From Clostridia bacterium (GTDB lineage Bacteria; Bacillota; Clostridia; Christensenellales; UBA1242), in NCBI GenBank assembly GCA_023228225.1, contig JALOBO010000064.1, forward strand, positions 1-7,753: 7,753 nucleotides of DNA, written 5' to 3'. The notes beneath the pieces are model-generated. The model made no database searches and was not told the DNA's origin. It saw only the letters and a program-made list of their open reading frames with translations. A program made the translations under genes and the position numbers. Positions within the stretch are counted from its first letter, which is position 1. Each line of letters begins with the position of its first letter. Positions 1,878 to 5,148 of the stretch are shown one piece after another.

Positions 1878-2687
1878 ATGAAAAAATATAACATTACCCA
1901 AGCGGAGTTAAATGTAAAAGTAGATTTGCATTCGCATCAAGGTATTAATTGGTTTACACTGAATGATAGGATTTTGGAGAATATAGATTTATCAAATAAA
2001 TCGTTGCCTTCCGCCTCTTGGGTAAGCTGTGTTTTACAAAATGTGAATTTTAGCAATGGGAATTTTCCATCGAATGATTTTCAATATTCTGATTTAACAA
2101 ATGTTGATTTTTCTGGGGCAAATCTTTGCTTTACTAATTTTAAATACACTAATTTGAAAAATGTAAATTTTACAGGTGCTAATTTAAAGGGTGCTGATTT
2201 TACAGGCTGTGAAACTGAAAATCTTATTTTTGAAAATTGTGAGATTTCCCCCAAAACTATCTTACCTCCTGTTAGAACTGAACCTGTAAATTTACTGAAG
2301 TGTACGGTTAAAAAAGCATTGCATGTTACCAAAAAGATTGCGCAAGTTTTAGTTTTATTCGCAAGTATTTGTGTGGTTAGCGGATTATTTATATACGCTT
2401 TGTATCAGATATGGGATATTTTAGTATCATTTATAAATAATTGTGTGAAATCAGTTGTGGATTTCAGTTTCTTAGTTATAAGTTTAGTTGGCAAATTCAT
2501 TTCAGATATAATTTACGTATTAGTGTCTGTCCCGTGGTTTGTTTGGGTGAGCATATTTGTTCCTATGTTAATAATCGGATATTCATACGTATGGTGTTAT
2601 CATAAAAATTATCCTGGTAAATTTGAACGTAAACTGCATTGGTTTAAAATGAGATTATACTATATCTTACACTGGCTGAAGATGTAA
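1878..2687 (+). CDS. Pentapeptide-repeat protein with C-terminal membrane anchor
   Basis: A 269-residue two-part protein. Residues about 35-123 hold pentapeptide repeats of the A(D/N)LxX type, clearest as Ser-Asp-Leu-Thr-Asn, Val-Asp-Phe-Ser-Gly, Ala-Asn-Leu, Thr-Asn-Leu and Ala-Asp-Phe-Thr-Gly. Such repeats fold into a right-handed quadrilateral beta-helix. After a linker with Pro-Pro, three hydrophobic segments follow at about 155-178, 192-215 and 216-239, then a basic, aromatic tail rich in Lys, His and Trp. The repeat domain would therefore sit at the inner or outer face of the membrane; topology is not certain. The ATG abuts the stop of the 38-residue ORF, suggesting co-transcription and coupling. 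Pentapeptide proteins include DNA mimics and many membrane-linked proteins of unknown role, so no function is assigned. Confidence 0.9.
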   Translation: MKKYNITQAELNVKVDLHSHQGINWFTLNDRILENIDLSNKSLPSASWVSCVLQNVNFSNGNFPSNDFQYSDLTNVDFSGANLCFTNFKYTNLKNVNFTGANLKGADFTGCETENLIFENCEISPKTILPPVRTEPVNLLKCTVKKALHVTKKIAQVLVLFASICVVSGLFIYALYQIWDILVSFINNCVKSVVDFSFLVISLVGKFISDIIYVLVSVPWFVWVSIFVPMLIIGYSYVWCYHKNYPGKFERKLHWFKMRLYYILHWLKM

Positions 2688-2803
2688 AGACTGCCGTTGA
2701 AACGCGCAAAAGGGTTAACACCCATACTTGTATTGGCGTAGATATATTTGTAAAGGAGACAACTAATGATTGCCGAGAGTGTTTATTATACATGAATATA
2801 TAA
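2648..2803 (+). other. Protein-like open frame lacking a usable start codon
   Basis: One frame stays open for about 50 codons across the end of the pentapeptide gene and beyond, stopping at 2801-2803. Its translation past the overlap has a balanced, protein-like composition, including a Cys-x-x-Cys near the end, but it has no ATG, GTG or TTG until three codons before the stop. It may be the remnant of a decayed gene or a chance open frame. No function is proposed. Confidence 0.2.
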
Positions 2804-2830
2804 ACGCAAAAGAATTAACACTGTATACTT
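2705..2830 (+). repeat. Two imperfect direct repeats exactly 100 bases apart
   Basis: CGCAAAAGGGTTAACA starts at 2705 and CGCAAAAGAATTAACA starts at 2805. The likeness continues through a following CAC/CCC and ATACTT. A related GCAAAAGAGTTAA occurs at 4121-4133, directly before the start of the gene at 4136. The shared core GCAAAAGRRTTAA could be a protein-binding site. Confidence 0.45.
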
Positions 2831-2844
2831 ATTTTGTTTTTTTT
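2831..2844 (+). terminator. T-rich terminator after the pentapeptide operon
   Basis: ATTTTGTTTTTTTT ends in eight T residues, a typical archaeal transcription stop. It lies about 145 bases after the pentapeptide stop codon and just upstream of a new promoter, separating the two transcripts. Confidence 0.5.
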
Positions 2845-2864
2845 ACAGTATAATATACTTTAGA

Positions 2865-2872
2865 TTATATAA
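2865..2872 (+). promoter_or_regulatory. TATA-like box of a predicted small RNA
   Basis: TTATATAA is centred at 2868.5, which places transcription start near 2894-2895. That point is the first base of the 11-base outer stem of the structure that follows. No start codon is present there, so a non-coding product is implied. Confidence 0.55.
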
Positions 2873-2893
2873 AATATTAAGTTAATGTTAAAA

Positions 2894-3040
2894 AGATTAG
2901 TTGCTGTAATAATTAATTATTACAGTGAGTCCATTACCTTCACGCAACTAATCTCCAGCCTGTTTACAATTAATCCAGAATCGTCCGAAGAGCAAAGAAC
3001 GTTTGCTAAATTTAAAACTTTCACTATTTTAAATTTAGTA
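2894..3040 (+). ncRNA. Predicted structured small RNA (family unknown, 3' end uncertain)
   Basis: The predicted transcript opens with AGATTAGTTGC (2894-2904), which pairs perfectly with GCAACTAATCT (2944-2954). Inside this outer stem lies a 22-base perfect palindrome (2904-2925), sharing one base with it, followed by an 18-base single-stranded stretch. Further hairpins follow: AGCAAA/TTTGCT (2991-2996 with 3002-3007) and a perfect 12-base stem CTAAATTTAAAA/TTTTAAATTTAG (3006-3017 with 3027-3038, 9-base loop). The last two share bases 3006-3007, so they compete or stack. No convincing coding frame is seen on this strand. The promoter at 2865-2872 fits the 5' end. The 3' end is unknown and could reach the hairpin at 3111-3143. 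An AT-rich replication-origin or protein-bound cruciform role is an alternative to RNA. Confidence 0.45.
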
Positions 3041-3110
3041 TCATATCGTTAATGCACAATAGTTCGTAGGTATGTCCATGTGTTAAGACAGTTTCGAGAG
3101 ATTACTACGT

Positions 3111-3143
3111 TGTAAAGTAGTTTTTATACAAAGCTACTTTACA
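3111..3143. repeat. 14-base inverted repeat, 5-base loop
   Basis: TGTAAAGTAGTTTT (3111-3124) pairs with AAAGCTACTTTACA (3130-3143) with one G-U pair and loop TATAC. A second copy of the right arm core, ACTACTTTA (3143-3151), can pair with the same left arm (3113-3121), giving two exclusive hairpins. It may close the upstream RNA or be a regulator site for the gene at 3233. Confidence 0.5.
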
Positions 3144-3193
3144 CTACTTTATTAGACTTCAAAGCATATAAATGTTTTGTTGATAGTAAATAC

Positions 3194-3204
3194 ATTTAAG
3201 TATA
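3194..3204 (+). promoter_or_regulatory. Probable promoter for the gene at 3233
   Basis: ATTTAAGTATA is centred near 3198, predicting a start near 3225 and a leader of about 8 bases. The fit is looser than for other genes here. A second candidate, CATATAAA at 3165-3172, would give a longer leader. Confidence 0.4.
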
Positions 3205-3232
3205 CCGGGTTGCTATATTAATTTGATAAATT

Positions 3233-3682
3233 ATGAATGACAATTTACATGAAAAACTTGTAAGATATGCAGAGGAGGAAGCATTATCCCCCAACACAAC
3301 TAAGCGTTTTATACAATTTGCAGAAGATTGGGCGGCTACTAAAGATATACATTTTGGTGGAGGCTATGGTAACGAATGGGCGGCACGTTTTAGAAAACAA
3401 GAAGAATATATTCACGCGGATGGTAGTAATGTAGCAAGACTTGCTAAAATAGATGGGGATAAGGCATTCGACATATTTGTAAAACAATTATTAAAATATG
3501 ACCCGTCACGAAGTGTTAAAAATGCAATTGCGTATGTTGAAAAACACTTAGGACTTTCTGAAAACGAAACATTAAAAGGCAGAAACACTTGTGTTACAAC
3601 ACATCAAATTACTAAAAGAGCAAACAAAATGGTTGGAACGTTACCTAATTTCACTCGTAATTTTAGAAAATTAGTGAAATAA
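3233..3682 (+). CDS. Hypothetical protein, 149 residues, mostly helical
   Basis: Unrecognised. The N-terminal 37 residues are acidic and helical (Glu-Glu-Glu, Glu-Asp-Trp). Then comes a glycine-rich stretch, Phe-Gly-Gly-Gly-Tyr-Gly (41-46), a charged helix, an Asp-Gly-Ser-Asn turn (63-66), two further helices to about residue 107 and a strongly basic tail (Lys/Arg at 116-149) with no acidic residues after about 112. The charge split, acidic front and basic end, suggests contact with nucleic acid or another protein, but this is inference. There is no ribosome-binding sequence before the ATG. The gene stands alone between two structure-rich non-coding stretches. No membrane segments or metal ligands are seen. 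Confidence 0.8.
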   Translation: MNDNLHEKLVRYAEEEALSPNTTKRFIQFAEDWAATKDIHFGGGYGNEWAARFRKQEEYIHADGSNVARLAKIDGDKAFDIFVKQLLKYDPSRSVKNAIAYVEKHLGLSENETLKGRNTCVTTHQITKRANKMVGTLPNFTRNFRKLVK

Positions 3683-3688
3683 AAATTA

Positions 3689-3694
3689 TTTTTT
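3689..3694 (+). terminator. Short T run after the gene at 3233
   Basis: Six T residues just after the stop codon, within an A/T-rich stretch, could end the 3233 transcript. If it does not, the following hairpin region would be the 3' part of that mRNA. Confidence 0.3.
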
Positions 3695-3695
3695 A

Positions 3696-3965
3696 GTGTC
3701 TAGGCAAAATAGACACATGGTTGAGTATTACTTTGCTGTTAGAGAGGTGTTTTCAACGACATCCACAGGGGTAGGATGTATTCTTTAAGACGTGATTATT
3801 TTGTAAATCCAATACGAACAATGACTCCTAAGTTAATCTAAGTATCATTCATTGGGAAATGATACTCACCAGTTAGACTAACTTATTTGTGCTCGAAAAA
3901 CGCTGAGCACTGCGTCATGCGAAACATCATCGCAAGTCTTTAGCAAAGCTGTTTTTCATTCTTTT
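3696..3965 (+). ncRNA. Candidate large structured RNA, about 270 bases (family unknown)
   Basis: Successive hairpins fill this gap. They are GTGTCTA/TAGACAC (3696-3702 with 3710-3716); ACATCC/GGATGT (3759-3764 with 3774-3779); a compound stem of TAAGTTAATCTA with TAGACTAACTTA (3829-3840 with 3874-3885, one mismatch) capped by perfect AGTATCATT/AATGATACT (3841-3849 with 3858-3866); GTGCTC/GAGCAC (3889-3894 with 3905-3910); and TGCG/CGCA (3918-3921 with 3931-3934). CTTTGCT (3731-3737) can pair with AGCAAAG (3942-3948), a possible closing helix. T runs start at 3951. No coding frame of note is present on the plus strand. It carries no recognisable RNase P, SRP or tmRNA core. No strong separate promoter is visible, so it may be processed from the 3233 transcript. 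Strand is chosen from the T-rich end. Confidence 0.4.
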
Positions 3966-3977
3966 TATTTGCTTTTT
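3951..3977 (+). terminator. T-rich transcription stop
   Basis: Three T runs of five each, with intervening ATTC and ATTTGC, follow the last hairpin. Repeated T runs are the usual archaeal terminator form. This end sets the plus-strand orientation of the candidate RNA. Confidence 0.5.
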
Positions 3978-4063
3978 AGCAAGCCAACTCTACAATACTA
4001 TATTAGTGCTTTTAGTATTTAAAACTTTTTATTTAATATTTTTAAAAACATCGTATGTAAAGA

Positions 4064-4071
4064 TTTATATA
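4064..4071 (+). promoter_or_regulatory. TATA-like box for the 4136-4506 operon
   Basis: TTTATATA predicts a start near 4094, giving a leader of about 42 bases. The leader holds a hairpin, TGTTAT/ATAACA (4101-4106 with 4113-4118), and the GCAAAAGAGTTAA element next to the start codon. A second box, TTATAATA at 4079-4086, would start transcription near 4109. This gene is thus an exception to the leaderless pattern. Confidence 0.45.
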
Positions 4072-4135
4072 TTATAAGTTATAATATGTTAGCAAGCAAA
4101 TGTTATAGTGAAATAACACTGCAAAAGAGTTAAGT

Positions 4136-4270
4136 ATGAACATAATAGAAAATGTTAACAAAGTATCTGAAATCATCGATGCTGACGAATGGTATGTGAA
4201 AAACGTCATTAGAGCTAAACCATGTGAAGATGTGATTATCGCTCGTGAACTGGCAACTGTGGTGATTTAA
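4136..4270 (+). CDS. Small hypothetical protein, 44 residues
   Basis: A short acidic, probably helical protein starting Met-Asn-Ile-Ile-Glu-Asn and containing one Cys (Cys34). It is first in a two-gene unit: its stop codon is 2 bases before the ATG of the cysteine-rich gene, and its last codons (GTG GTG ATT) carry the GGTGAT ribosome-binding site of that gene. This arrangement is the main evidence that it is real. The ATG follows TTAAGT, the same context as the start at 5437. No family is recognised. Confidence 0.65.
   Translation: MNIIENVNKVSEIIDADEWYVKNVIRAKPCEDVIIARELATVVI
4261..4266 (+). promoter_or_regulatory. Ribosome-binding site GGTGAT for the gene at 4273
   Basis: GGTGAT complements ATCACC near the 3' end of archaeal 16S rRNA and ends 6 bases before the ATG at 4273. 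It is embedded in the last codons of the upstream gene. Confidence 0.6.
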
Positions 4271-4272
4271 AA

Positions 4273-4506
4273 ATGAGTATCGGTTGTGACTGCGATTGTA
4301 TAGATGAACATCCGTACAGCACATCTAAACATTGTGCTGAATGCAGTGTCGATTGCAGTAGAACATACGCAATTCGGTTAATTGCATATTTAAGTGACGC
4401 TGGGAAAGATGTCAACATGACATGTAACGATGGTTCTTGTGTTGTAACTTGGACTATTGAATTGACAGATGTGTTAGGTTATAAAGATTTACCTAGTATT
4501 TCATAA
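4273..4506 (+). CDS. Cysteine-rich small protein, 77 residues, probable metal binder
   Basis: Eight cysteines fall in two groups. Cys5, Cys7, Cys9 form a Cys-x-Cys-x-Cys cluster. Cys21, Cys24 and Cys28 follow His20, and His13 lies between the groups. Cys51 and Cys56 come later, before a beta-like C-terminal segment. The spacing suggests one or two zinc or iron sites, although it matches no finger family I can name. Translation starts at the ATG 2 bases after the upstream stop, with GGTGAT as ribosome-binding site. The gene's end contains the likely TATA box of the first tRNA gene. The function is unknown; nucleic-acid binding is possible. Confidence 0.8.
   Translation: MSIGCDCDCIDEHPYSTSKHCAECSVDCSRTYAIRLIAYLSDAGKDVNMTCNDGSCVVTWTIELTDVLGYKDLPSIS
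4479..4486 (+). promoter_or_regulatory. Possible TATA box for tRNA-Leu(CAA)
   Basis: TTATAAAG lies inside the end of the preceding gene and predicts a start near 4509, about 12 bases before the mature tRNA. Read-through from the upstream operon is an alternative source of the transcript. Confidence 0.35.
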
Positions 4507-4520
4507 ACATATTTTTAAAA

Positions 4521-4604
4521 GCGTGGTTGCCAGAGTGGTCAAATGGGCGCGCCTCAAGAGCGTGTGTTGCAGAACTTTCGCAGGTTCAAATCCTGCACTA
4601 CGCA
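4521..4604 (+). tRNA. tRNA-Leu, anticodon CAA
   Basis: A complete class II tRNA. The 7-base acceptor stem GCGTGGT pairs with ACTACGC (one G-U), discriminator A at 4604. The D arm uses CCA/TGG with a GTGG-containing loop. The anticodon stem CGCGC/GCGTG encloses loop C-T-CAA-G-A with anticodon at 4555-4557. A 15-base variable arm forms a short stem (GTT/AAC). The T stem GCAGG/CCTGC encloses TTCAAAT. No CCA is encoded and no intron is seen. The anticodon and long arm indicate leucine, reading UUG. Discriminator A fits leucine. It is closely similar to the tRNA at 4665, so the pair probably arose by duplication. Confidence 0.95.
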
Positions 4605-4617
4605 TTTTTATTATTTT
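4605..4617 (+). terminator. T-rich stop after tRNA-Leu(CAA)
   Basis: TTTTTATTATTTT directly follows the discriminator base, a standard position for ending a tRNA transcript. Confidence 0.5.
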
Positions 4618-4626
4618 AACAAAAGC

Positions 4627-4634
4627 TTTATATG
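4627..4634 (+). promoter_or_regulatory. TATA-like box for tRNA-Leu(TAA)
   Basis: TTTATATG predicts a start near 4657, about 8 bases before the mature tRNA 5' end. The second tRNA therefore seems to have its own promoter. Confidence 0.5.
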
Positions 4635-4664
4635 TATAAAGATACAATAGTTATATATATCAGA

Positions 4665-4747
4665 GCGTGGTTGCCAGAGCGGTTAAATGGGCGCGCCTTA
4701 AGAGCGTGTGTCGTAGGACTACGCAGGTTCGAATCCTGTACTACGCA
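4665..4747 (+). tRNA. tRNA-Leu, anticodon TAA
   Basis: A complete class II tRNA with the same acceptor stem, D stem and anticodon stem as the gene at 4521. The loop C-T-TAA-G-A has its anticodon at 4699-4701 and reads UUA. The variable arm is 14 bases and forms GTC/GAC. The T stem GCAGG/CCTGT has one G-U pair and loop TTCGAAT. The discriminator is A and no CCA is encoded. With its neighbour it covers both UUR leucine codons. TTA is the dominant leucine codon in nearby genes (13 of 19 in the gene at 4792). Confidence 0.95.
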
Positions 4748-4760
4748 TTATTATACATAC

Positions 4761-4768
4761 ATTTAAAT
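4761..4768 (+). promoter_or_regulatory. TATA-like box for the gene at 4792
   Basis: ATTTAAAT is centred 27.5 bases before the ATG at 4792 and lies just after the tRNA, indicating a separate leaderless transcript. Confidence 0.6.
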
Positions 4769-4791
4769 GTTACAACATACTAGAATATAAC

Positions 4792-5148
4792 ATGGTATCT
4801 AAACGCGATATTAATAATATCAGCAGAGGGTGTATAGCTGGATTAGCATCATTTTTATTTGTTGGTTTAGGGTTTATGATGACGCATCAATATAAAAAAT
4901 TTTTTGCATATTTACTATTATCAATTATTTTATATTTTGCAAATCTAGGAGCGTTATTATTTTTTGTAACATGTGTAATTATTAACAACAACTCGACAGC
5001 ATCACAAATGCTTGTTTGGTTAAGTGGTGGCTTAGTGTGTGTATTTTTCTTATTAGCAATTCTCGTATGGGTGATGAGTATGATAAACGCAAGTCTGGAT
5101 GCTTACAACGCAAATAAACTGGTCGATGAATTAACAACTGTTGATTAA
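4792..5148 (+). CDS. Small integral membrane protein, TM2-like
   Basis: A 118-residue protein with hydrophobic segments at about 13-30, 36-63 (long, possibly two short spans) and 74-98, and a polar, acidic tail. The pattern of Ala-x-x-Ser-Phe-Leu-x-x-Gly-Leu-Gly near the first span, then Lys-Lys starting the second, and Leu-Asp-Ala-Tyr-Asn-Ala-Asn after the last, resembles the broad TM2-like / DUF5683-like family seen in many archaea and bacteria (SFLxPGLGQ ... DAY). The usual Pro of the motif is replaced by Val. The family has no agreed biochemical role. The start is set by the promoter 27 bases upstream. It is monocistronic or ends before the next promoter at 5151. Confidence 0.8.
   Translation: MVSKRDINNISRGCIAGLASFLFVGLGFMMTHQYKKFFAYLLLSIILYFANLGALLFFVTCVIINNNSTASQMLVWLSGGLVCVFFLLAILVWVMSMINASLDAYNANKLVDELTTVD

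Follow-up and report, generated by a model that had tools for sequence, protein, structure and literature searches.

The intergenic region downstream of a 149-residue open reading frame (ORF) in the window, which is the entire stretch of 7753 bases analysed here (31% G+C), probably contains a structured, seemingly non-coding element that belongs to no known family and may have a function. Our preferred reading, to which we assign a probability of roughly 40%, is that a folded RNA of about 310 bases, which is not translated and may act as an antisense regulator of the 149-residue gene, is encoded on the minus strand. The stretch studied, positions 3683–3977, lies between this ORF and a small ORF starting at 4136, within a gap of 453 bases between the end of the former at 3682 and the start of the latter. 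The features of the window are collected in Table 1.

Table 1. Positions of genes, predicted RNA elements and candidate transcription signals in the window
Feature	Position	Strand	Description and evidence
Integrase (tyrosine recombinase) gene	623–1564	minus	PF00589 match (Pfam)
Pentapeptide-repeat gene	1878–2687		
149-residue ORF	3233–3682	plus	Tail to tail with the predicted minus-strand RNA
Predicted non-coding RNA, ~310 nt	3681–3995	minus	Ends predicted from TATA-box placement and T-rich sequence
Perfect hairpin GTGTCTA/TAGACAC	3696–3716	both	7 pairs
Folded core	3718–3957	minus	Folding z-score against shuffles
Closing helix P1	3730–3949	minus	8 pairs, 3949–3942 (GCUUUGCU) with 3737–3730 (AGCAAAGU)
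Long-range pair CTTTGCT/AGCAAAG	3731–3737/3942–3948		7 of 7 pairs Watson–Crick
Hairpin ACAUCC/GGAUGU	3759–3779	minus	6 pairs; mean pair probability 0.96 on minus, 0.90 on plus
Long arm	3829–3885	minus	12 pairs (3885–3874/3840–3829, one G–U) and 10 pairs (3866–3857/3850–3841, one G–U), with a one-sided bulge
Perfect stem	3841–3866		9 pairs; part of the long arm
Hairpin GUGCUC/GAGCAC	3889–3910	minus	6 pairs; mean pair probability 0.95 in the core
Stem TGCGA/TCGCA	3918–3934		5 pairs
Three TTTTT tracts	3952–3977	plus	Possible archaeal terminator of plus-strand transcription
TATA box TTTAAATA	4016–4023	minus	8/8 match; predicted promoter of the minus-strand RNA
TATA box TTTATATA	4064–4071	plus	Points away from the predicted RNA
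tRNA-Leu (CAA)	4521–4604	plus	tRNA prediction and Rfam match
tRNA-Leu (UAA)	4665–4747	plus	tRNA prediction and Rfam match

The hairpins are real, and the perfect-hairpin signal comes from one sequence. Positions 3683–3977 contain four perfect stems of at least six pairs, compared with a mean of 0.91 in 1000 dinucleotide shuffles, 12 of which have four or more, and the stem pairs total 28, compared with 5.8 in shuffles (4 of 1000 reach 28). With the five-pair stem at 3918–3934 added, the count agrees with the preliminary description of this DNA, which had reported at least five hairpins, mostly with perfect arms; the long-range pair CTTTGCT/AGCAAAG and the T runs at the end of the stretch that it listed are also present. 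When 295-base stretches were slid along the window, 14 of 299 exceeded the studied stretch in stem pairs; nine of these start at 3576–3876 and overlap it, and the other five start at 2751–2901. The G+C content is 38% in 3720–3950 and 35% in 3683–3977, against 31% window-wide. Both the shuffle counts and the raised G+C content speak against functionless hairpins that arose by chance, or against decayed sequence, in AT-rich intergenic DNA, a reading that we regard as distinctly unlikely even though it would suit a single sequence without relatives and the folding z-scores near −3 or lower at several other sites in the window.

A protein-coding reading was rejected, as no ORF of 40 or more residues lies inside 3683–3977 and the longest stop-free frame touching 3690–4000 spans 56 codons, on the plus strand; the earlier remark that the plus strand offers no good coding frame holds. 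A known RNA family was rejected for want of an Rfam match. In the covariance search that the preliminary description had suggested (cmscan with all 4227 families of Rfam 15 over the whole window), only the two tRNAs matched at E ≤ 1, in keeping with its assignment of the element to no recognized class, and the region 3640–4100 gave five sub-threshold matches, the best with 16.8 bits against a gathering score of 43. Scans of viral contigs and genome contigs yielded no related DNA, and DNA searches of phages (10 records, all with E ≥ 0.9) and plasmids (one record, with an E of 1) stayed at chance level. Six comparisons of 3683–3977 with the non-coding stretches 1570–1877 and 2686–3232 gave no clear similarity, the best being equalled by 18 and 21 of 200 shuffles.

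Folding energies compared with those of shuffled sequences point to the minus strand. The fold of 3683–3977 has a z-score of −2.98 on the minus strand (0 of 200 shuffles as good) and −1.97 on the plus strand (9 of 200), and the expectation that the stretch folds better than shuffled sequence is borne out on the minus strand and borderline on the plus strand. For the core (3718–3957) the values are −3.11 (2 of 250) and −1.38 (22 of 250), respectively, and the minus strand from 3995 to 3681, the only strand folded over this range, gives −3.01 (0 of 250). The minus strand has the lower z-score in all five shifted 240-base windows (−2.69 to −3.26 versus −1.29 to −2.55 for plus). In a 240-base scan of 126 windows with 25 shuffles each, the lowest z-score, −4.64, which is noisy because of the small number of shuffles, belongs to the minus-strand window at 3721, one of five windows below −3. 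In a 150-base scan, a z-score of −3.0 is attained by seven windows outside the studied stretch, whose own best window ranks 12th. The plus strand has the lower z-score in the 150-base window at 3651 (−2.57 versus −2.08), and in the 240-base window at 3680 (z-score of −2.55 on plus) its raw energy is also below that of the minus strand. The z-score is a weak detector, since the two real tRNAs in the window, each folded on its own strand, give only −0.7 and −0.5.

The long stem bears on the same choice. It had been described as 12 plus 9 pairs on the plus strand; the stem is real, but position 3836/3878 inside the arm is an A–C mismatch on the plus strand, where the longer part consists of seven and four pairs around the mismatch, and a G–U pair on the minus strand, where the part has 12 pairs including this one. 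The folding z-scores, the G–U pair and the TATA box at 4016–4023 favour the minus strand and the T tracts favour the plus strand, and we conclude that the minus strand probably carries the structured RNA and that the plus-strand RNA originally proposed was probably placed on the wrong strand.

In the predicted minus-strand RNA, P1 would close the fold into a single domain. Its mean pair probability is 0.98 in the minus-strand core; it is missing from the minimum-energy fold of 3995–3681 and is kept in the maximum-expected-accuracy fold of 3995–3676. The long arm has mean pair probabilities of 0.89 (12-pair part) and 0.96 (10-pair part) and, folded alone, z-scores of −4.98 on the minus strand and −3.19 on the plus strand. 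The loop GUUUUUC of the 3889–3910 hairpin is complementary to GAAAAAC at 3957–3951, a pairing that represents a possible pseudoknot. The hairpin at 3696–3716 appears in the folds of 3683–3977 on both strands and is missing from the minimum-energy fold of 3995–3681. Together with the T-rich stretch that comes after it on the minus strand, which includes TTTTT at 3685–3681, it may constitute a terminator.

From these signals and the promoter pattern we infer that the RNA is produced and where it begins and ends. A start would be expected about 28–30 bases beyond the TATA box at 4016–4023, i.e. at 3993–3995. This box is the only perfect minus-strand site in 3600–4140, with three 7/8 sites further upstream (4030, 4039 and 4054), and it offers moderate evidence for the predicted RNA, as a perfect minus-strand site arises in 12–16% of local shuffles. 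The window as a whole holds 14 perfect TTTAWATA sites against 6.0 expected, a number reached by 0 of 200 shuffles. A search for sigma-70 promoters in 2600–4800 was uninformative (16 versus 10.8 in shuffles, with a standard deviation of 2.9). A direct repeat, TTAGCAAGCMAA, at 3976–3987 and 4089–4100 flanks the two divergent TATA boxes and may be a regulator site.

T tracts act as archaeal terminators. The plus strand carries T5 runs at 3952–3956, 3962–3966 and 3973–3977, a cluster of three in 26 bases that is equalled in density by 9 of 2000 shuffles of 3683–4063; the first run begins four bases after the long-range helix, just outside P1. This arrangement argues for a plus-strand RNA ending at 3952–3977, either as a structured 3′ untranslated tail of the mRNA of the 149-residue gene or as an RNA processed from it, as do the long-range helix in the plus-strand centroid and maximum-expected-accuracy folds, an extra loop-closing G–U pair that the 3889–3910 hairpin gains on the plus strand and the z-score of −2.55 in the window from 3680. 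We nevertheless consider such an RNA doubtful: the plus-strand fold of the core is weak (z-score of −1.38, with 22 of 250 shuffles as good), the long-range helix is missing from the plus-strand minimum-energy fold, the promoter scan found no plus-strand TATA site of at least 7/8 starting in 3600–4027 and a T6 run at 3689–3694 may terminate the mRNA first.

Alternatively, the region could act as DNA, as an intergenic cluster of inverted repeats that provides protein-binding sites for recombination, replication or the control of transcription. The four main stems are perfectly Watson–Crick paired and so exist on both strands, and folds computed for single-stranded DNA beat the shuffles on both (z-scores of −3.14 and −2.63, 0 of 200 each). 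A tyrosine recombinase is encoded in the element, and the direct repeats beginning at 3976 and 4089 flank two divergent TATA boxes. We judge this reading unlikely, as the hairpins differ from one another in sequence and would not be repeated binding sites, the integrase gene is 2.1 kb away from the studied stretch and the G–U pair favours RNA.

In the antisense reading that we prefer, the minus-strand RNA would begin at about 3994, downstream of the TATA box, and stop at about 3681, overlapping the tail of the 149-residue gene. If the mRNA of this gene continues as far as the T5 tracts at 3952–3977, its sense tail and the minus-strand RNA would share about 300 bases of complementarity. The two RNAs could then meet through their hairpin loops and form a duplex, which would lower or time expression of the 149-residue gene. 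The action of the minus-strand RNA as a structured counter-transcript is the most tentative step; it would account for the minus-strand TATA box and the plus-strand T tracts together. Contrary to such an overlap, the T6 run lies directly past the gene and could end the mRNA early. The sequence evidence for the minus-strand RNA would fit a free-standing RNA of that strand, acting elsewhere, just as well. Should the minus-strand RNA exist, its predicted ends and helices would make it a defined target, against which expression of the orphan neighbouring gene could be assayed. To our knowledge, archaeal viruses and plasmids have few known structured RNAs, and none was named in the titles among the matches listed by a literature search.

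The relatives of the 149-residue protein fall into two clusters, 99 and 79% identical to it, in a search of protein collections that covered relatives sharing short exact words. The 79% cluster (P0002) may stem either from a second copy alongside the gene in the window or from a sister element. The protein has no Pfam match at E ≤ 0.1, and its predicted model, of low confidence (mean pLDDT of 53.7), consists largely of helices. The relatives of the integrase form five protein clusters, of which one is the window's own; P0003 is 100% identical to the integrase of the window. The longest contig given for P0003 and for P0002 is 82,501 bases in both cases; P0002 would be the second copy if the window is part of that contig. 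None of the five integrase clusters was found in viral contigs or genome contigs, and the integrase itself had no match in phages. None of eight further ORFs scanned in the window reached the Pfam cut-off.

The host of the element is likely to be archaeal, based on the spacing of the TATA boxes and on two integrase matches. A TATA box about 28–31 bases before the start codon is the archaeal leaderless pattern. Among 16 chosen starts (14 ORFs and two tRNAs), nine have a 7/8 or 8/8 TATA match 17–50 bases upstream; five of these nine matches lie 28–31 bases before the start, a raw count over hand-chosen starts, and the count supports the archaeal setting assumed initially. The single match of the integrase profile to solved structures at E ≤ 0.001 is 4a8e, a XerC-like recombinase that we take to be XerA of Pyrococcus abyssi, and the archaeal phage integrase family of Pfam matches the integrase below the cut-off (16.2 versus 27 bits). 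The element is probably mobile as well as archaeal, and it may be viral; it contains an integrase gene and tRNA genes, its status as a virus being putative. The tRNA-Leu pair (CAA and UAA) of this low-G+C element occupies 4521–4747, with the two genes 60 bases apart; the matches listed for it are all short and belong to bacterial phages and plasmids.

A second structured stretch, at 2880–3160, is found on the other side of the 149-residue gene (z-scores of −3.7 and −3.9). Within it, 2894–2954 forms a three-way junction with no unpaired bases where its helices meet, composed of an 11-pair helix (2894–2904/2944–2954), an eight-pair hairpin (2905–2924) and a five-pair hairpin (2925–2943, with one G–U on the plus strand); its z-scores are −6.25 on the plus strand and −5.81 on the minus strand (0 of 500 shuffles each). 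We regard it as very improbable that the two folded non-coding loci (2880–3160 and 3681–3995) and the 149-residue orphan protein constitute one RNA–protein module, representing a new class of archaeal mobile-element RNA. Two further sequence features were noted. The motif GCAAAAGRRTTAA occurs exactly three times, at 2706, 2806 and 4121, always on the plus strand and never inside one of the larger ORFs; allowing one mismatch gives four matches against 0.2 expected, for a pattern that was defined after the copies had been seen. It may be an operator or leader element. Before the pentapeptide-repeat gene, the arms ATGATGCAAAATT and AAGTATGCATCAT (1742–1838) are 85% complementary and 71 bases apart; the whole of 1757–1877 folds no better than shuffles (z-score of −0.21).

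The preliminary description had likened the element to the GOLLD and ROOL RNAs. A published account describes these as bacterial and phage RNAs, often located near tRNA genes in phages and prophages, with many GOLLD members longer than 800 bases and a ROOL numbering that runs to at least 464, and notes that Rfam includes profiles for both (PMC12286853). The present element resembles them in being structured, of unknown function and located in a mobile element with tRNA genes less than 1 kb away; the tRNA-Leu genes, the sole basis of the analogy, lie 540–690 bases from the studied stretch. It differs from them in both model match and size: no Rfam model matches it, neither GOLLD nor ROOL is among the five sub-threshold matches in 3640–4100, and the predicted RNA has about 310 bases in an inter-ORF gap of 453. 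The pairs txpA/RatA and bsrG/SR4 are convergent antisense RNA pairs of bacterial mobile elements whose proteins are short peptides. The 149-residue protein, with its low-confidence, mostly helical model, is larger than these peptides, and the overlap of transcripts is here predicted from the TATA box and T tracts. The arrangement otherwise resembles that of txpA/RatA and bsrG/SR4: a small gene of a mobile element faces a predicted structured RNA tail to tail.
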